Shown: piece by piece, positions 9,623 through 21,546 of the stretch
How the letters are laid out: each line of letters begins with the position of its first letter
Position numbering within the stretch: the first letter of the stretch is position 1
Source: Methanospirillum stamsii
GTDB lineage: Archaea; Halobacteriota; Methanomicrobia; Methanomicrobiales; Methanospirillaceae
Reading direction: 5' to 3'
Assembly (NCBI RefSeq): GCF_003173335.1
Contig: NZ_QGMZ01000013.1
Coordinates: forward strand, 1-41,755
Length of the DNA stretch: 41,755 bases
Notes under the pieces: generated by a model
Database searches by the model: none
Seen by the model: only the letters and a program-made list of their open reading frames with translations
Told to the model about the DNA's origin: nothing
Translations under genes and position numbers: made by a program

Positions 9623-10333
9623 ATGGAATCGGGACTTCGTCATCGGCTCGCGGAGAAGATGGCGGGGGAGATAACTCTTTCTGATTCTCCGGGAAAAACC
9701 CTGAAGAAATGGCGACTGAGTTTTGACATTTCCCAGGGTCAGCTCTCCGAATATCTTGGCGTATCGCCGTCTGTCATAAGTGACTACGAGAGCGGAAGGA
9801 GGAAAAGTCCGGGCACTGCAATTATCGGCCGGATTGTTGACAGTATTCTTGCCATTGATGAAGGAAAGGGTGGGAGGTACATTCACAAGTATGCATCTCT
9901 CCTCTTTGCTGAAATTGGAGACGGGGTAATCTACGACCTTCACGATTACAAAAATCCCATCGACCTGTCAACATTCGCAAACGTAATTGGTGCCGAGGTT
10001 ATTTCCGGCCAGGTAAATCTGAGCATTTACGGGTATACGGTAATTGACAGCCTCAAGGCAATTATGAACCTTACCGCAAGCGAATTTAACCGGATATACG
10101 GATGGAGCACTGAGCGGGCGCTCATTTTTACCGGAGTTTCAAACGGAAAGTCACCGATGGTGGCAATCCGGGTTACTCCCTTCAAGCCCCGGTGCGTAGT
10201 TCTCCATGGTATTGATTCAGAGAAAGTTCATCCAATTGTGCCAAAAATGGCAGAAAAGGATAACATTACCCTGATGTGCACAACACACGAAATCGAAGAC
10301 ATCGTGGAAAGACTGAGGGAAGAAAAATGGTAG
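9623..10333 (+). CDS. Archaeal HTH-type transcriptional regulator heading the mevalonate operon
   Basis: This 236-residue protein has a Cro/C1-type HTH at about residues 28-75 ([20 protein letters not shown], then [18 protein letters not shown]). The conserved C-terminal domain of about 150 residues ([36 protein letters not shown]) is characteristic of an archaeal regulator family. In many euryarchaea this family sits directly before HMG-CoA synthase, as here. The reading frame overlaps the synthase start by 7 nt, implying translational coupling. It probably controls its own operon, perhaps through the promoter element before it. The ligand is unknown. Confidence 0.85.
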
Positions 10334-11379
10334 GAATCATCTCGTACGGTGCATACATTCCACGCTACCGTATAAAAGTAGAAGAGATTGCCCGGGTGTG
10401 GGGTGCAAACGGCACTGAGATCTCCCGTGGCCTTGGCGTTTATGAAAAGGCACTGCCTGACATGGATGAAGACACGATAACCATCTCCGTTGAAGCTGCT
10501 CGGGCTGCGATGGCAAGACGGAAGATAGATCCGGTAGAGATTGGTGCTATTTATGTCGGGTCCGAGTCACACCCTTATGCGGTGAAACCTTCAGCAGTAA
10601 CGGTTGGTGAAGCAATCGGTGCAACTCCTGTTATGACAGCAGCAGACTATGAGTTTGCATGTAAAGCAGGAACTGCAGCAATCCAGACCTCAATGGGCCT
10701 TGTAAAATCTGATATGGTCACCTATTCGGTTGCAATAGGTGCAGATGTTGCCCAGGGAGAACCTGGCGATGCACTCGAATATACCGCAGCAGCAGGTGGA
10801 GCGGCCATGATTATCGGGAACAAAGACCCGATTGCAGAAATCAACCATACCTGTTCATTCACCACTGATACCCCGGACTTCTGGAGACGTGAAAACAAGC
10901 CATATCCAAGACATGGCGGAAGGTTCACCGGAGAACCGGCATATTTCAAGCATGTTATCGGAGCATCAAAGATGATGCTTGAGAAGATGGGAACAAAACC
11001 ATCCGACTATAACTATGCAGTCTTCCACCAGCCAAACGGCAAATTCCCGGTGCAGGCAGCCTCCATGCTCGGATTCACCAAGGACCAGTTAAAAGCTGGC
11101 CTTGCAGTCACTTATCTCGGAAACACCTACTCCGGTGCCTCGATGGTTGGTCTTTCTGCCGTCCTTGACGTTGCAAAACCGGGCGAGAGGATTTTTATGA
11201 CCAGTTACGGATCTGGTTCCGGAAGCGATTCATTTGACCTTACCGTCACTGACGTAATTGATTCTGATGTTTTTGACCGGAATGCGGCACCAACTGTGTC
11301 TGCTCTCCTTGCAGACAAGAAGTTAGTGGACTATGCAGTCTATGCAAAACACAAAGGTAAAGTGGTGATGATGGAATGA
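10327..11379 (+). CDS. Hydroxymethylglutaryl-CoA synthase, archaeal type
   Basis: The 350-residue enzyme condenses acetyl-CoA with acetoacetyl-CoA to HMG-CoA, a step of the mevalonate route to isoprenoid lipids. The catalytic residues are E80 (YVGSE), C112 ([10 protein letters not shown]) and H234 (AVFHQPNGK). The start is set at the internal ATG because [17 protein letters not shown] is the typical archaeal N-terminus; an upstream in-frame ATG would add 17 unrelated residues inside the regulator gene. The start overlaps the regulator by 7 nt and the end overlaps the thiolase by 4 nt (ATGA). In methanogens this enzyme forms a channelling complex with thiolase bridged by a DUF35 protein, and all three genes are adjacent here. 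Confidence 0.96.
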
Positions 11380-12539
11380 GAGAAGTTGCAGTAATCGGTG
11401 TAGGCTGTACAAAATTCGGAGAGAAATGGGAGAGTTCATTCAGGAACCTCTTTGTTGAAGCAGGAGCCCTTGCTCTCGAGGATGCAAACATCTCCGGTGA
11501 ACAGATAGACGAGATTTTTGTCGGGAACATGAGTGCAGGGCGGTTTGTCGAGCAGGAACACATTGGTGCTCTTATTGCCGACTACGCCGGACTTGCAACA
11601 AATAATATTCCGGCAACCCGTGTGGAAGCAGCCTGTGCATCCGGAGGTCTCTCATTCAAACAGGCATATACCGCTGTTGCATCGGGGATGTCTGATATCG
11701 TGGTTGCAGCAGGTGTCGAAAAGATGACCGATGTAGGAACCGAGGTCACCACCGATGTTCTTGCAGCCGCAGCAGATAGAGAGTGGGAGGGTATTGCAGG
11801 AGTTACCTTCCCCGGTCTGTATGCAATGATTGCAACCGACTACATGAACCGGTACGGTTTGACCCGTGAACAACTTGCACAGGTTGCGGTAAAGAACCAC
11901 GAAAACGGTGCAAAAAACCCGAATGCACAGTTCAGAAAACCGATAACCCTGGATACCGTTCTCAATTCAACTCTCGTTGCAGATCCTCTCCGCCTGTTTG
12001 ACTGTTCTCCGGTTACCGACGGAGCAGCAGCAGTTATCCTTGCACCGCTTGAGCGGGCACGTGAATTTACCGACACTCCGGTTAAAGTGCTTGGTTGTGG
12101 ACAGGCTTCTAGCAGTATTGCTCTTCATGACAGGAAAGATATCTGCACTCTTGATGCAACCGTTGCAGCAGGAAACCGGGCATTTCAGATGGCAGGTGTT
12201 GAGCGGAAGGATATCGGGTTTGTCGAGGTCCATGACTGTTTCACTATTGCCGAGATCTGTGCAATCGAGGATCTCGGGTTCTGTAAGAAGGGTGAGGCAG
12301 GTAAGCTGACCGAAGATGGACAGACCGCAATCGGCGGAAAGATCCCAATCAATCCAAGTGGAGGCCTTAAGGCCTGTGGTCATCCGGTTGGTGCAACCGG
12401 TGTCAAACAGGTCTATGAAACCGTCAAACAACTCCGGGGCGATGCAAAAGGCCGGCAGATTGATACCGAGATTGGAATGACCCATAATGTTGGGGGTACC
12501 GGAGCCACGGTTGTCTGCCACATATTCGGGAGGGTATAA
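11376..12539 (+). CDS. Acetyl-CoA C-acetyltransferase (thiolase), archaeal mevalonate type
   Basis: The 387-residue thiolase makes acetoacetyl-CoA from two acetyl-CoA and hands it to HMG-CoA synthase. The nucleophile is C87 in [12 protein letters not shown]. The C-terminal active-site motif reads [16 protein letters not shown], and the VHDCFTIAE histidine motif is present. The archaeal subfamily (COG0183, sterol-carrier-like) lacks the long lid loop of bacterial thiolases, and the length here fits. The start overlaps the upstream stop as ATGA, and the stop is directly followed by the DUF35 start, so the three proteins are likely made together in fixed ratio. Confidence 0.95.
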
Positions 12540-12540
12540 G

Positions 12541-12930
12541 ATGTCAGTTGCACGTTTCTGGAGAAAACAGCAGAACCGGTACAACCTTATCGGAACACAC
12601 TGCACAACCTGCGGGAAATATTTCTACCCGCCCCGTGCATTCTGTCCGGACTGCAGAAGAGACGGTAAGATTGTTGATCACCAGTTCAAGGGAACCGGAA
12701 AGGTTGTTACGTACTCCATCATCCGGAGTTCATCAGGCGACTTCAAACTCCTGACTCCATATGTCCTCGCAATCATCGAACTTGACGAGGGGTCACGGCT
12801 TACCACTCACCTGATATGCGACATTGATAAGGTAAAAATCGGCATGCCGGTAAAGAGGGTCTTCAGGAAACTCGGAGAAGAAGGATCCAGCGGCGCAATC
12901 CATTATGGGACAAAATTTGTCCCGGCCTAA
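12541..12930 (+). CDS. DUF35 OB-fold zinc-ribbon protein of the thiolase/HMG-CoA synthase complex
   Basis: The 129-residue protein has a zinc ribbon with C21, C24, C35 and C38 (HCTTCGKYFYPPRAFCPDC). An OB-fold follows (GTGKVVTYSIIRSSSGDF, PYVLAIIELDEGSRLTTHL). In the methanogen complex solved by crystallography, DUF35 bridges thiolase and HMG-CoA synthase, and its CoA-binding site is shared between them. The start is the ATG one base after the thiolase stop; a longer in-frame start would lie inside the thiolase gene. The 129-residue length is normal for the family. A long T-rich terminator follows. Confidence 0.95.
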   Translation: MSVARFWRKQQNRYNLIGTHCTTCGKYFYPPRAFCPDCRRDGKIVDHQFKGTGKVVTYSIIRSSSGDFKLLTPYVLAIIELDEGSRLTTHLICDIDKVKIGMPVKRVFRKLGEEGSSGAIHYGTKFVPA

Positions 12931-13347: not shown

Positions 13348-14556
13348 ATGGATATTGACCGCGAGGAAATTGCGCAAAAATCACTCGCTCTCCACCTGGA
13401 TAATCATGGGAAACTGGCAATCTCTTCAAAGGTGCCGGTAAAGACCAGGGAGGATCTGTCAACAGCATACACCCCGGGAGTTGCTCATGTATGCAGGTAT
13501 ATTGCGGAAGATGAAAGAAGGGCTTTTTCCTGCACGTTAAAGCATAACAGTATCGCAATCGTCACCGATGGTACCGCGGTTCTGGGTCTTGGAAATATCG
13601 GCCCGTACGCTGCAATTCCGGTCATGGAAGGAAAGGCAATTCTTTTCAAGGAATTTGCCGGAATAGATGCATTTCCCATCTGTATCAAAGGAGACCATGA
13701 TGATCTTATCAGCCATATCAGAAGCATTGCTCCGGTATTCGGAGGGATTAACCTGGAAGATATCGCGGCTCCCCATTGTTTTGAGATAGAAGAGGAACTT
13801 CAGGACCTTGGTATTCCGGTCATGCATGATGACCAGCACGGTGCAGCTATCGCAGTTATGGCTGCTCTTCTTAATTCCTGCAGAGTGACCGATAAAAAAT
13901 ACAAAGAACTCTCCGTTGTTGTGTCCGGGGCAGGAGCTGCCGGATATGCCGTTTGCAGGCTGCTCAAGTGTATCGGGTACGAGGGAGAAGAATGCCATGC
14001 AGTAAAAGAACTCACGGTCTGTGACCGGACCGGTATTATTTACCGGGGAAGACCGGGTTTGTACCATAACATCTACAAATACCTCCTCGGAGATGAAACA
14101 AACCAGGATCTCCGGAAAGGAACTCTGGCTGATGCATTAATAGGTGCTGATGTCTTTATCGGTGTTTCGAGCGGGAACCTGGTGACAAGAGAGATGGTCC
14201 GGACCATGAACAAGGATCCAATTGTGTTGGCCCTTGCAAACCCGACTCCGGAGATAATGCCGGACGAAGCAAAAGCAGGTGGTGCAGCCATCATCGGAAC
14301 CGGGCGGTCAGATTATCCGAACCAGGTCAATAATGTTCTTGTATTTCCGGGAGTGTTCAGGGGGGCTCTGGATGCCGGGGCAACAAGGATAACTGAAGAG
14401 ATGAAAGTTGCTGCAGCGTATGCAATTGCCGAGTACATTAATGATCCGACTCCGGACAGGATTCTTCCGGACCCACTTGACCGGGGGGTTGCACAGGCAG
14501 TTGCGACAAAGGTTGCTGAAATGGCGAGGAAATGTGGGTGTGTAAGGAAGATTTAA
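13348..14556 (+). CDS. Malic enzyme (malate dehydrogenase, oxaloacetate-decarboxylating)
   Basis: The 402-residue enzyme oxidatively decarboxylates malate to pyruvate with NAD(P). The catalytic Tyr is Y41 (STAYTPGVAHV) and the catalytic Lys is K96 (MEGKAILFKEFAGIDAFP). Metal-binding acidic residues lie in NLEDIAAPHCFEIE and in MHDDQHGAAIA (D161, D162). The Rossmann loop is GAGAAG at 194-199. The length matches the short prokaryotic form without a phosphotransacetylase tail. The N-terminus MDIDREEIAQKSLALH is typical. The gene ends 68 nt before the rubredoxin-TPP enzyme on the same strand, so the product pyruvate could be the next enzyme's substrate. Most methanogens lack this enzyme or use it anaplerotically. 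Confidence 0.93.
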   Translation: MDIDREEIAQKSLALHLDNHGKLAISSKVPVKTREDLSTAYTPGVAHVCRYIAEDERRAFSCTLKHNSIAIVTDGTAVLGLGNIGPYAAIPVMEGKAILFKEFAGIDAFPICIKGDHDDLISHIRSIAPVFGGINLEDIAAPHCFEIEEELQDLGIPVMHDDQHGAAIAVMAALLNSCRVTDKKYKELSVVVSGAGAAGYAVCRLLKCIGYEGEECHAVKELTVCDRTGIIYRGRPGLYHNIYKYLLGDETNQDLRKGTLADALIGADVFIGVSSGNLVTREMVRTMNKDPIVLALANPTPEIMPDEAKAGGAAIIGTGRSDYPNQVNNVLVFPGVFRGALDAGATRITEEMKVAAAYAIAEYINDPTPDRILPDPLDRGVAQAVATKVAEMARKCGCVRKI

Positions 14557-14624
14557 TTACCCGGTAGAGACGGAGTTTTCCTGGATCACAACATTGAAAC
14601 AACTGTATTGATAATGAGGAGATC

Positions 14625-16397
14625 ATGGCCATATGGAAATGCAAAATCTGCGGATATCTCTATCAGGAAAAATACGGGGATCCTCAGACAAATGTCCCCC
14701 CGGAGACACCATTCACCAAACTTCCAGAAACATGGCTTTGTCCGGTATGCCATGCAGAAAAACGTGCATTTGAACTAATGCAGCCTATCGAACAGGAAAC
14801 ATCCTCTCTTCCCACCGTATCAGAAGTATTAATTCAAAATCTTGTCCATTTTGGCATCACTGATTATTTTGGAGTTCCTGGAACCAGTAGTCTTGGAATT
14901 ATTGATGCCATTCGTAAAAACAATAATACCCGGTTTTTTCTGTTCCGTCATGAAGAGAATGCTGCAATGGCAGCTTCTGCGTACAATAAACTAACGGGAA
15001 AAATCGCAGCATGTGTGACGATTGCAGGACCCGGGGCTACCAATCTGGCAACCGGCCTGTATGATGCTAAAGAAGACAGGGCATCTGTTCTTTCATTAAA
15101 CGGGCAGGTTGAGATGCAATATGCAGGTCCTGGGGGTTTTCAGGAGATAGATCAGGATGGCTTTTTCAGACCTATCACAGTTTTCAACAATACAATATAT
15201 GATAAAAAAATGGCAGCCAGGATATTAACAATGGCAGTACAACATGCTGTTGTCAGAAAAGGAGTAGCCCAGATATCTGTTCCAAATGATATTCAGAAAG
15301 AAACGGTTGACCCTGAGTATACTGATATCAGGGGAACAATCCCGTCTTTGATAATCCGGCCGGATAAAAATACCATGGATATAGTAATTAAGGAGATTCA
15401 TTCAGCAAAATTACCAGTAATTCTTGCCGGATGGGGAGCATTTCAATACCAGGAATTGCTGGTGTCATTTGCCGCAAGAATTGATGCACCAATTCTTTCT
15501 ACATTCCGTGCAAAAGGAATACTACCTGAGAATCATCCATTGTATGCAGGCATTTTAGGAACAGTCGGATCAGCACAAGCTCGTGAAATGGTGGAACACA
15601 CCGACCTTCTTATAACACTTGGTGTTGGTTTCTCTAAAATGACCAGGGTTCCTGAAAATCTCAGAATTATTCAGGTTGATAATGATCCTATACGTCTGGG
15701 AAAAGGAAAAAATTCTCTCCCGGTTTTTGGAGATGTTGGACAGGTCCTATCAGATCTGCTTTCAAAAATACCACAATCATCCCACTCTACTGCCATGGAA
15801 CGGACCAGCATAACAAAAACACCGTGGGAAACAGCCCGTAGATCTGAAGCCAGTGACACATCAGTCCCTCTCCGCCCTCCCTATATCATGGAAGTCCTTT
15901 CTCAGGAGATCCCGGCAGGAGCGATAATATCCCTTGATGTTGGTGAAAATGGATGGTGGTTTGGCAGAAATTTCAGAATGAACGGCCAGAAATTTATCAT
16001 GTCCGGATACCTTGCAACAATGGGGTTTGGATTTCCTGGAGCCATCGCAGGAAAAATCGCATGCCCAGATAAACCAGTGTTTTGTATCACAGGCGACGGC
16101 GGATTTGCTATGGCAATGGGGGATTTTGTTACTGCTGTAAAATACCACCTTCCTATGGTCGTGATCATTTTAAATAATCATGAACTTGGAATGATCCGGG
16201 TTGAACAACAGATTGAGCAATATCCGAACTATGCAACAACTCTTCATAATCCTGATTTTGCCATGTATGCCAAATCCTGTGGAGGTGAAGGAATTTTGGT
16301 GAAAAATCCGCATGAACTTGCACCAGCGATAAAATGGGCACTAAGTCAGGATTGTCCGGTTATTATTGATGTTATGACAGATCCGAACAGGTTTTAG
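14625..16397 (+). CDS. Rubredoxin domain fused to a TPP-dependent enzyme (acetolactate synthase / pyruvate oxidase superfamily)
   Basis: The 590-residue protein has an N-terminal rubredoxin (residues 1-52). Its iron ligands are C6, C9, C39 and C42 (WKCKICGYLYQ, WLCPVCHAEKRAFE). After a short linker it carries a complete TPP-enzyme fold: a Pyr domain from about 62 with the catalytic Glu in FRHEENAA (E110) and AGPGATNLATGLYDA; a central domain with IIQVDNDPIRLGKGK, as in pyruvate oxidase and acetolactate synthase; and a PP domain with GDGGFAMAMGDF (from G490) and NN (517-518), the TPP/Mg motif. A ribosome site (GAGGAG) lies 3 nt before the ATG. The fusion suggests electrons move from the thiamine intermediate, perhaps through flavin, to the Fe(Cys)4 site, which plain acetolactate synthase does not need. 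The substrate is not determined; pyruvate or another 2-oxo acid is likely. Confidence 0.88.
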   Translation: MAIWKCKICGYLYQEKYGDPQTNVPPETPFTKLPETWLCPVCHAEKRAFELMQPIEQETSSLPTVSEVLIQNLVHFGITDYFGVPGTSSLGIIDAIRKNNNTRFFLFRHEENAAMAASAYNKLTGKIAACVTIAGPGATNLATGLYDAKEDRASVLSLNGQVEMQYAGPGGFQEIDQDGFFRPITVFNNTIYDKKMAARILTMAVQHAVVRKGVAQISVPNDIQKETVDPEYTDIRGTIPSLIIRPDKNTMDIVIKEIHSAKLPVILAGWGAFQYQELLVSFAARIDAPILSTFRAKGILPENHPLYAGILGTVGSAQAREMVEHTDLLITLGVGFSKMTRVPENLRIIQVDNDPIRLGKGKNSLPVFGDVGQVLSDLLSKIPQSSHSTAMERTSITKTPWETARRSEASDTSVPLRPPYIMEVLSQEIPAGAIISLDVGENGWWFGRNFRMNGQKFIMSGYLATMGFGFPGAIAGKIACPDKPVFCITGDGGFAMAMGDFVTAVKYHLPMVVIILNNHELGMIRVEQQIEQYPNYATTLHNPDFAMYAKSCGGEGILVKNPHELAPAIKWALSQDCPVIIDVMTDPNRF

Positions 16398-16522: not shown

Positions 16523-16550
16523 AATAAACAAAAAAAGATTTTTGTTTATT
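16523..16550. repeat. Perfect 12-bp inverted repeat with 4-nt loop
   Basis: The arms are AATAAACAAAAA and TTTTTGTTTATT with loop AAGA. The repeat ends 8 nt before the ATG of the broken ATPase gene. It could be an operator, a leader hairpin or, given the T-run, a terminator for transcripts arriving from the rubredoxin-TPP gene 125 nt upstream. Confidence 0.7.
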
Positions 16551-16558
16551 GATAATAT

Positions 16559-17803
16559 ATGATAGCTTATCATATCCTTAAAGAAGTAATTGGAGATCAA
16601 CATTAACGGTTTCTTAATCAGGATCCCGGCATACCCCGGAGAATTGACCCTGAACAGTTCCGGAGCAGAAACAGAATTGTAATCATCTCAGGAGTTCGCA
16701 GATCCGGGAAATCCACCTTCATAAAACAATTATCACTTGGATTCCCTTCGTTTTTATATCTGAATGCTGATGATGACCGGCTAATCGGAGCCACCAATGA
16801 TGACTTAGGATCTCTGCTCCTTATCTGGGAGGAATTATTTCCCGGAGTAAGAACGGTATTTTTAGATGAAATCCAGAATATTCCCGGATGGGAACGGGTT
16901 GTTCGAAGGATGCATGATGAAGGATACCGGATTTTTCTGACCGGATCAAATGCACAGATGCTGAGTAAAGAACTGGGAACCCATCTGACCGGGAGATATG
17001 TAAGAATTGAATTATACCCTTTCGGATTTGATGAATATTGTACCTTTCATCAATTTACCTGGAATAAAACCGGCATCCATACCACCATTGAATCTGCTGC
17101 AGCTCTCCGTCTTTTTTATCAGTTCATTGAAGACGGGGGATTTCCGGAATTTCTAAAAGATCCTGATCCCGAAATATTACGAAGAACCTTTGACGACATT
17201 CTGTTTCGTGATATCATCGCCAGATATGCCATTCGTGAAATCAAGGCATTTCGTTTGTTATGCAGATACTTGTATACGAACATGACAAGAGAAGCAAGTC
17301 TTACGTCGCTGGCTTCAATTGTTCAGATGAAAAGCCCGGTTTCCCTAAAAAACTGGATTGGATATCTTGAAGATAGTTATCTTATCGGAAGTCTTTCTCC
17401 TTTTGAATACTCAATGAAGAAACAACTCTCACGGAACCAAAAATATTATGGGATTGATACAGCACTTCGTAATGCCGTAGCATTCAGATTTTCAGACGAC
17501 TATGGCCTTCTCCTTGAAAACATCGTGTGGCTGGAACTATGCAGAAGAGGGTATGAATTATACTGGCTTAAAGGACAATACGAATGTGATTTTATCGTCG
17601 TCGAGCAAGGGAGAGTATGTATGGCAATCCAGGTATGCTGGCACCTCTCTGATGAAAATAAAAAAAGGGAGTACGATGGAGTTATTGAGGCATATAATAT
17701 GTTTCCAGGTTCAAATGGCTATATATTGACACTCCATCAGGAAGAACAACCAGCTGAAAATATCAGGGTAATGCCGGTCTGGAAATGGATACTTGAACAG
17801 TGA
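16559..17803 (+). pseudogene. AAA-family ATPase with DUF4143 domain, interrupted by an in-frame stop at codon 16
   Basis: Translation from ATG 16559 gives MIAYHILKEVIGDQH and then TAA (16604-16606). The frame continues without another break as RFLNQDPGIPRRIDPEQF, Walker A GVRRSGKST (from 16691), Walker B TVFLDEIQN and LTGSNAQML. The DUF4143 part follows (GRYVRIELYPFGFDEY, DDILFRDIIARY) and a nuclease-like end (YECDFIVVEQGRVCMAIQV). The residues on either side of the stop fit the family's usual N-terminus, so one substitution at a Gln or Glu codon would explain it. No ATG, GTG or TTG follows the stop in frame before the Walker A motif. The first later ATG, at 16910, would give a 297-residue product lacking nucleotide binding. 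Such ATPases are accessory genes of unknown function. Confidence 0.8.
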
Positions 17804-19763: not shown

Positions 19764-19896
19764 GATCAGTATTGGTCGCACCGGTTTATGCACCATGTGG
19801 TTGTACGTATCCGGATAGGTGGTGCAGGTGATGAAATTTTTTGCACCACCATCCTTTCCTTTATCTTCTGGTCGGCCCAATCTGTTCATGAGTATC

Positions 19897-21546
19897 ATGC
19901 GGAGTGATGAGGTCAAAACCGGATACGCCCGGGCACCGAACCGGTCGCTTATCAGATCTCTCGGGATTGATGAGAGTGAGATGAACCAGCCGTTCATCGG
20001 GATTGCAAACTCCTGGAATACCATCGTCCCCGGTCACATGCACCTTCGAAACCTGGGAGAGAGGGTTCGCGAGGGAATTGCTGCCGGAGGCGGGACGGCA
20101 TTTGAATTTAATACCATCGGGATATGCGACGGTATCGCCATGGGACACGAAGGAATGCGGTATTCACTCCCTTCACGGGAAAATATTGCAGATTCTGTGG
20201 AACTCATGATCCAGGCACACAAATTCGACGGTATTGTCTGTGTATGCACCTGTGACAAGATTGTTCCCGGAATGCTCATGGCAGCGGCAAGGTGCAATAT
20301 TCCGGCAATAGTGGTTACCGGTGGAAACATGCTCCCCGGTCATTATCATGGCTGCGAACTATCCCTGACCGATGTATTTGAGGGAGTCGGAAAGGTTGCC
20401 GGTGGAAAAATGACCGAGGAGGAACTACATGAACTGGAAGCTGCAGCAATGCCAGGATGCGGATCATGTCAGGGCCTTTATACCGCAAACACGATGGCCT
20501 GTATGACCGAGGCAGTCGGCATGTCTCTTCCCGGATGTGCAGCAACACCGGCAGTTTATGCAGAAAAACTCCGGCTTGCATACCGATCAGGAAAACGTAT
20601 CTGTGATCTGGTGAAAAAGCAGGTCCTTCCCCGTGATATTATCACTCCGGCAAGTCTTCGCAATGCCATCAGGGTGGACATGGCTCTTGGCGGATCCACA
20701 AACACCGTCCTCCATCTGATGGCCATCGCAACCGAAGCAGGCGTTCCCTTTTCTCTGCAGGAATTTAACGTCATATCCGGCCAGGTGCCCCATATCGCCT
20801 CCATGATGCCCGGAGGCCCGCATTCAATGGAAACCCTGCATCATGCCGGAGGAATCCCGGCGGTTTTCAGACAGATTAAAAAGTATCTGGAGAATTGTGA
20901 GACGGTTTCCGGAATGGACACATATTCTATCGCCAATGCAGTCAGGTATGTGAATAAAGAGGTTATCAGACCACCTGAATCACCGGTTCATGCAAGCGGC
21001 GGCCTTATGATTCTGACCGGAAACCTGGCTCCAGGCGGTGCGGTCATAAAAAGTGGTGCGGTCCAGGACGAGATGTGGAAACACACCGGTCCGGCACGGG
21101 TCTTTGATGGTGAAGCCGATGCCATGAAAGCCATCCTTGAACGGCAGATAACCGAAGGAGACGTAGTGATTATCAGGTACGAAGGACCAAAAGGCGGACC
21201 AGGTATGCCGGAAATGCTCTCTCCAACCTCCGCTCTTGTCGGTCTTGGATACAGCAGAGTTGCCCTCATCACCGACGGGCGGTTTTCAGGTGGTACCAGA
21301 GGGCCCTGTATCGGACACGTATCTCCGGAAGCTGCAGTAGGAGGCCCCATTGCCTTTGTCAAAGAGGGAGACAGCATCTCAATCGATCTCCATACAAAGA
21401 GTATCGAACTCGGGGTCAGTCCGGACGAACTTGAAAAGAGAAAGGCTGGATGGAAACCGACACAAAGACCACTCACCAGTGTCCTTTCACGGTATGCTGC
21501 AGCAGTAGGTCAGGCAGATGTTGGTGCAGTACTACTGCAGAAGTAA
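19897..21546 (+). CDS. ilvD: Dihydroxy-acid dehydratase
   Basis: The 549-residue enzyme dehydrates 2,3-dihydroxy-isovalerate and 2,3-dihydroxy-3-methylvalerate to the 2-oxo acids for valine, isoleucine and leucine. The iron-sulfur cysteines lie in [10 protein letters not shown] and [17 protein letters not shown]. The substrate region [10 protein letters not shown] and the signature [20 protein letters not shown] are complete. The start chosen is ATG 19897 because [18 protein letters not shown] is the standard archaeal N-terminus. In-frame ATGs at 19888 and 19819 would add up to 26 residues unlike the family. No other ilv genes adjoin it, so it is a single-gene unit followed by a T-rich terminator. 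Confidence 0.97.

Follow-up and report, generated by a model that had tools for sequence, protein, structure and literature searches.

The gene considered here encodes, in a single polypeptide chain, a rubredoxin (Rd) and a thiamine diphosphate (ThDP)-dependent enzyme, and thus raises the question of which reaction such a protein catalyses and where its electrons go. It is located in a stretch of 41,755 nucleotides from Methanospirillum stamsii, which is referred to in the following as the window. The original prediction described a complete rubredoxin with the ligands C6, C9, C39 and C42 joined to a complete ThDP enzyme having its catalytic Glu in the motif HEENAA as well as a GDG...NN motif, and both halves of this description are borne out. 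The domain search that had been suggested along with it matched rubredoxin followed by TPP_enzyme_N, M and C (Table 1): the PF00301 match (residues 4–49) scores 66.2 bits against a Pfam cut-off of 23, the three ThDP-enzyme domains all score far above their Pfam cut-offs, and the four cysteines, the catalytic Glu (E110) and the GDG...NN motif (residues 490–518) are all in place. TPP_enzyme_M is the domain that binds FAD in pyruvate oxidase (POX) and acetohydroxyacid synthase (AHAS). In an AlphaFold2 model of the 590-residue protein, calculated with 48 homologues as a monomer without cofactors, both modules are folded (mean pLDDT 91), and values below 50 are confined to residues 54–59 of the linker and to residues 168–170.

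Table 1. Positions in the window of the Rd-POX gene, the parts of its product and the adjoining malic enzyme gene.
Feature	Position	Strand	Basis or remark
Malic enzyme, oxaloacetate-decarboxylating type, 68 bp upstream of Rd-POX	13348..14556	+	PF03949, PF00390
Possible ribosome-binding site GAGGAG, directly 5' of ATG	14616..14621	+	read off sequence
Whole CDS, rubredoxin + pyruvate-oxidase-type ThDP enzyme, 590 aa	14625..16397	+	single uninterrupted ORF
Rubredoxin domain, residues 1-50; predicted Fe(Cys)4 ligands C6, C9, C39, C42	14625..14774	+	PF00301, E 2.7e-18
Linker, residues 51-63; low confidence at 54-59	14775..14813	+	pLDDT < 50 at 54-59
TPP_enzyme_N, residues 64-178; catalytic Glu110 (RHEENAA), F172-Q173	14814..15158	+	PF02776, E 1.8e-33; alignment
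TPP_enzyme_M, residues 254-378; VGFSKMT where AHAS has RFDDR	15384..15758	+	PF00205, E 1.7e-30; alignment
TPP_enzyme_C, residues 438-583; GDGG...NN 490-518; Glu527; DVGExxWWFGRNFRM family motif	15936..16373	+	PF02775, E 2.3e-41

The fusion is real and not an assembly artefact, because full-length matches over residues 1–590 recur within the order, where many genera have them, and in further families of the phylum; this wide conservation also rules out a chance join of rubredoxin and enzyme. After removal of duplicates, 55 distinct fused homologues were obtained, of which 45 have a single rubredoxin and 10 a tandem pair; both CxxC motifs of the domain are kept in every one of them. Among the named relatives in the genome collection, the closest comes from a Methanospirillum hungatei MAG (76% identity), and identities of 37–48% were obtained for the fusions from other families of the phylum and for one from an Altiarchaeota MAG. 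Sequence variation is larger in the rubredoxin domain than in the ThDP body, and those Methanospirillum comparisons that yielded a dN/dS value for the rubredoxin stretch gave less than 1. Our bacterial sampling, confined to two particular sets, contained no Rd fusion at E 1e-100 among 398 Bacillota genomes and no fusion among four genomes from the phylum of L125, the one relative from a bacterial-labelled MAG, which itself lacks the rubredoxin. It had been stated initially that no characterised enzyme of such a design is known, and a search of the open-licence PMC literature likewise found neither a paper on the Rd-POX fusion nor a biochemical description of it; one Geobacter paper in which both names occur is unrelated. 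The family is conserved, apparently uncharacterised, and best named a variant on the pyruvate oxidase theme.

In order to assign the ThDP enzyme, residues were aligned with those of LpPOX, of E. coli PoxB (EcPoxB) and IlvI (both from MG1655), and of the genome's own IlvB. Judged by sequence and fold, the ThDP body is of the pyruvate-oxidase type and not an acetolactate synthase, because of its profile score, its fold, its active-site residues and its place in the tree: (i) among the NCBIfam models, pyruvate oxidase PRK08611 scores highest with 486.8 bits, a value that does not reach the curated equivalog cut-off of 742 bits, and the best acetolactate synthase model scores 335 bits; (ii) the best PDB sequence match is the Lactobacillus POX, and the best Foldseek matches are LpPOX, C. 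glutamicum PQO and EcPoxB (TM about 0.82); (iii) the equivalents of Glu59, Gln122 and Glu483 of LpPOX are kept as E110, Q173 and E527, and F172 aligns with Phe121; and (iv) a tree calculated from the ThDP body places the archaeal clade with POX and the Bacillus relatives and not with the IlvB outgroup. Phe479, located between ThDP and FAD in LpPOX, is replaced by Met523, and Met is likewise found in the Bacillus relatives.

AHAS (IlvB/IlvI) belongs to the same superfamily and shares the three-domain layout and the GDG...NN motif. The window protein lacks, however, the Arg (RFDDR) and the Trp (QWQ) which serve the second substrate in AHAS, reading VGFSKMT and RVEQ instead, and no IlvN-like gene adjoins the Rd-POX gene in the window. 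A second copy in the genome (at C1) is a normal biosynthetic IlvB, with an ACT-type small subunit (L158 2582-3100) and a citramalate/isopropylmalate-synthase-like gene as neighbours. Acetolactate synthase was rejected as the identity of the protein on account of residues, profile scores, tree and this separate IlvB-IlvN pair. The wider proposal of a carboligase, acetolactate synthase or another, whose rubredoxin only senses redox state or oxygen or is a structural appendage, could draw on the facts that AHAS binds FAD without net redox chemistry, that an ilvD-like gene is found 3.4 kb downstream in the window, and that rubredoxin is missing in some close homologues. Yet we regard it as decidedly unlikely, given the lead of 150 bits of the POX models over the ALS models, the absent Arg and Trp, the normal IlvB-IlvN pair, and the result of neighbourhood clustering, in which no ilvD-type gene was common to the window and other loci.

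The comparison with LpPOX, EcPoxB and C. glutamicum PQO reveals, apart from the common N/M/C order, catalytic Glu, Gln122 and Glu483 equivalents, fold and profile scores, several pronounced differences. Sequence identity is only 26–28%, the archaeal protein has an N-terminal rubredoxin and is found in strict anaerobes, and it is devoid of the C-terminal tail or membrane-docking peptide. Past the last shared column, the tail comprises 0–14 residues in the archaeal clade and 25–41 in all Bacillota relatives except one out of 21. That of EcPoxB has 40 residues; it attaches the enzyme to the membrane and controls the access of quinone. The Bacillota pyruvate oxidase-like proteins (PRK08611, YdaP type), which are the nearest relatives outside the archaeal group in a genome-contig scan (36–41% identity to the ThDP body), all lack a rubredoxin. 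Since the POX tail is missing and an N-terminal rubredoxin is present, the sequences suggest that the electron acceptor has changed relative to the POX enzymes.

The rubredoxin is not always part of the same chain. At 18 loci of Methanoculleus and its kin it is encoded by an ORF of its own directly upstream of an Rd-less enzyme, with short or overlapping junctions; a sequencing error behind this split is ruled out, since the separate upstream ORF is common to many species. The loci of Methanofollis, L094/L097, ANME-type relatives and L125 yielded no rubredoxin, and the enzyme can therefore work without one in cis. Free rubredoxin genes exist in the genomes of Methanofollis, and their products could serve the Rd-less enzyme there. 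In the FastTree phylogeny of the ThDP body, a tail-less, mainly archaeal clade is set apart from the POX/Bacillota group with a support of 0.99, and the fusions fall in two parts of this clade, with Rd-less lineages between them. Because a short form of the rubredoxin (CxxC pairs set 25 and not 33 residues apart) occurs in both fusion-bearing parts, one old fusion with subsequent losses is suggested, although there may have been two separate fusion events. A phylogeny with the rubredoxin lost or non-binding in close homologues had been named in advance as speaking against the original interpretation. Loss is indeed seen, in that Methanoculleus has the domain as a gene of its own and the Methanofollis and ANME-type loci lack it, but the domain is never degenerate, all four Cys being present in each fused copy.

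It is conceivable that the N-terminal domain binds zinc, or is just a docking or folding module, and takes no part in electron transfer: Cys4 zinc ribbons look like rubredoxins, the window copy lacks the Gly of the second knuckle (it reads CPVCH), and the domain is, as stated above, more variable than the body. We nevertheless deem this very improbable, since the domain scores as a true rubredoxin, takes the form of a separate rubredoxin gene in Methanoculleus and of tandem pairs elsewhere, and is found in the same kind of fusion on other flavoenzymes at these loci.

The gene neighbourhoods indicate a connection with pyruvate and with redox chemistry that involves rubredoxin, because malic enzyme, fumarate reductase (Frd) and Rd-fused flavoproteins recur beside the enzyme gene. 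A malic enzyme gene adjoins the Rd-POX gene in four lineages, that is, Methanospirillum (the window, where it is the sole telling neighbour), L040/G053, L081/L082 and L114; in the other Methanospirillum genomes examined the two genes were not found side by side. Across 80 enzyme-bearing genomes with 52 malic-enzyme matches, three are immediately adjacent, compared with about 0.04 by random placement, a rough estimate in which two of the three are related. In two methanogen MAGs (L081:4681-11884 and L082:4680-11978) the arrangement is operon-like and reads malic enzyme > Rd-Rd-POX > FrdA > FrdB > aspartase/fumarase, the FrdB being devoid of a CCG domain. At L126, a cluster consisting of FrdA, FrdB, aspartase and a fusion of rubredoxin with FMN_dh is located about 1.5 kb from the Rd-POX gene and convergent with it. 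This latter fusion (L126:4556-5809, minus strand; rubredoxin PF00301 plus FMN-dependent hydroxy-acid dehydrogenase PF01070), which adjoins aspartase and FrdB-FrdA, represents a second kind of Rd-fused flavoenzyme.

An Rd-fused GltS-like flavoprotein adjoins the Rd-POX gene in L058 (15 bp downstream on the same strand), L127, L075/L128 and L093/L100, and in L063/L064 the GltS-like neighbour lacks a rubredoxin. The Rd-fused proteins (L058:2759 onward and L127:4427 onward, plus strand; L075:8040-9524, L093:4084-5547, L100:4089-5543 and L128:8874-10298, minus strand) carry their rubredoxin at the N-terminus and are distinct from canonical archaeal GltS. Elsewhere, an aminotransferase gene follows directly downstream of the enzyme gene in Methanofollis, NAD-kinase-like and PLP enzyme genes stand beside it in L038/L039, the ANME-type loci have an FMN reductase-like gene and others that are functionally uninformative, and neighbourhood content varies at the remaining loci.

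Taken together, we propose, with a probability of roughly 0.6, that the window gene encodes a soluble anaerobic pyruvate:rubredoxin oxidoreductase, which uses a POX scaffold to convert pyruvate to acetate (or acetyl phosphate) and CO2. The original prediction had offered either an oxidative decarboxylation of a 2-oxo acid, with the electrons going to a rubredoxin partner, or a redox-sensing carboligase. The former is now best supported, by the POX-type body without a tail, the often adjacent malic enzyme and the soluble redox neighbours, some of them Rd-fused, and the latter is disfavoured by the missing AHAS residues and by the IlvB-IlvN pair elsewhere in the genome.

In the proposed mechanism, Glu110 would activate ThDP, to which pyruvate would add before losing CO2, and the resulting hydroxyethyl-ThDP carbanion would reduce an FAD presumably bound in the middle domain, yielding acetate as in EcPoxB or acetyl phosphate as in LpPOX along with the CO2. 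FADH2 would then give up its electrons one by one to the putative Fe(Cys)4 site of a rubredoxin, be it fused or separate; tandem rubredoxins would suit such a two-electron donor. The N-terminal rubredoxin would thereby take the place of O2 or quinone and hand electrons to soluble partners which probably depend on the species: a soluble FrdAB fumarate reductase, the Rd-fused GltS-like flavoprotein, or rubredoxin-dependent scavengers of peroxide or O2. In the window organism, the adjacent malic enzyme would supply pyruvate from malate. The pyruvate/acetate couple is strongly reducing, rubredoxin has a potential near 0 mV, and fumarate/succinate is near +30 mV. Electron flow in this direction would thus be downhill, and in organisms with FrdAB, fumarate would be well suited as the terminal acceptor.

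Because of the aminotransferase in Methanofollis and the NAD-kinase-like and PLP enzyme genes in L038/L039, the substrate may vary between species or be something besides pyruvate. A broader 2-oxo-acid:rubredoxin oxidoreductase acting mainly on another 2-oxo acid, derived from amino acid or malate/oxaloacetate metabolism, would be in line with that aminotransferase, with the mixed neighbours in general, and with a pocket altered by the family-specific WW motif and by Met in place of Phe479 of LpPOX. It appears rather unlikely, however, in view of the pyruvate-making malic enzyme in four lineages and the overall similarity to pyruvate oxidases. Rubredoxin is also the usual electron donor to rubrerythrin, flavodiiron and superoxide reductase systems in anaerobes, and the genomes encode several free rubredoxins, so that one might think of an oxidative-stress enzyme which passes pyruvate electrons via rubredoxin mainly to such systems and serves O2 or peroxide removal instead of carbon flow. 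We consider this to be unlikely: none of the neighbours examined could be recognised as a gene for rubrerythrin, a flavodiiron protein or superoxide reductase, and the recurrent ones encode malic enzyme, fumarate reductase, aspartase and GltS-like proteins.

For the pyruvate:rubredoxin oxidoreductase that we favour, the proposed half-reaction, anaerobic oxidation of pyruvate with transfer of electrons to an iron protein, resembles that of pyruvate:ferredoxin oxidoreductase. The latter, however, has an unrelated domain architecture, depends on CoA and employs a low-potential ferredoxin, whereas the window protein contains neither a CoA nor a ferredoxin domain. A rubredoxin as built-in electron relay of a flavoenzyme is likewise seen in the Trichomonas flavodiiron-rubredoxin-rubredoxin reductase fusion, which reduces O2 (PMC9364112); in the archaeal protein, by comparison, the rubredoxin is joined to a decarboxylating enzyme that depends on ThDP, and it would be the acceptor.

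If the proposal is correct, rubredoxin joins O2 and quinone as an acceptor of the POX family, CO2-reducing methanogens gain a CoA-independent oxidative use of pyruvate or malate that bypasses ferredoxin, and the rubredoxin domains on POX-, glutamate-synthase- and hydroxy-acid-dehydrogenase-like flavoenzymes are explained as a shared way around oxygen and quinones. One may then speculate, quite tentatively, that these proteins constitute a new, quinone- and O2-independent acceptor class of the POX family, and that in some methanogens the tandem rubredoxins feed a soluble fumarate reductase, so that the operon of malic enzyme, Rd-Rd-POX, FrdA, FrdB and aspartase would support a soluble dismutation of malate or aspartate to acetate, CO2 and succinate.

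Some further features of the window may be mentioned. The ilvD-like gene (dihydroxy-acid dehydratase-like; 19819-21546, plus strand) is named from its translation. An AAA_14/DUF4143-type ATPase gene (16541-17803, plus strand) has an in-frame stop near its start, the ORF from 16910 starts within the ATPase domain, and the gene is possibly decaying. Finally, genes for HMG-CoA synthase, acetyl-CoA acetyltransferase and a DUF35-like OB-fold protein, named from their translations, stand in a row at 10276-12930 (plus strand), an arrangement that is usual in archaeal mevalonate clusters.
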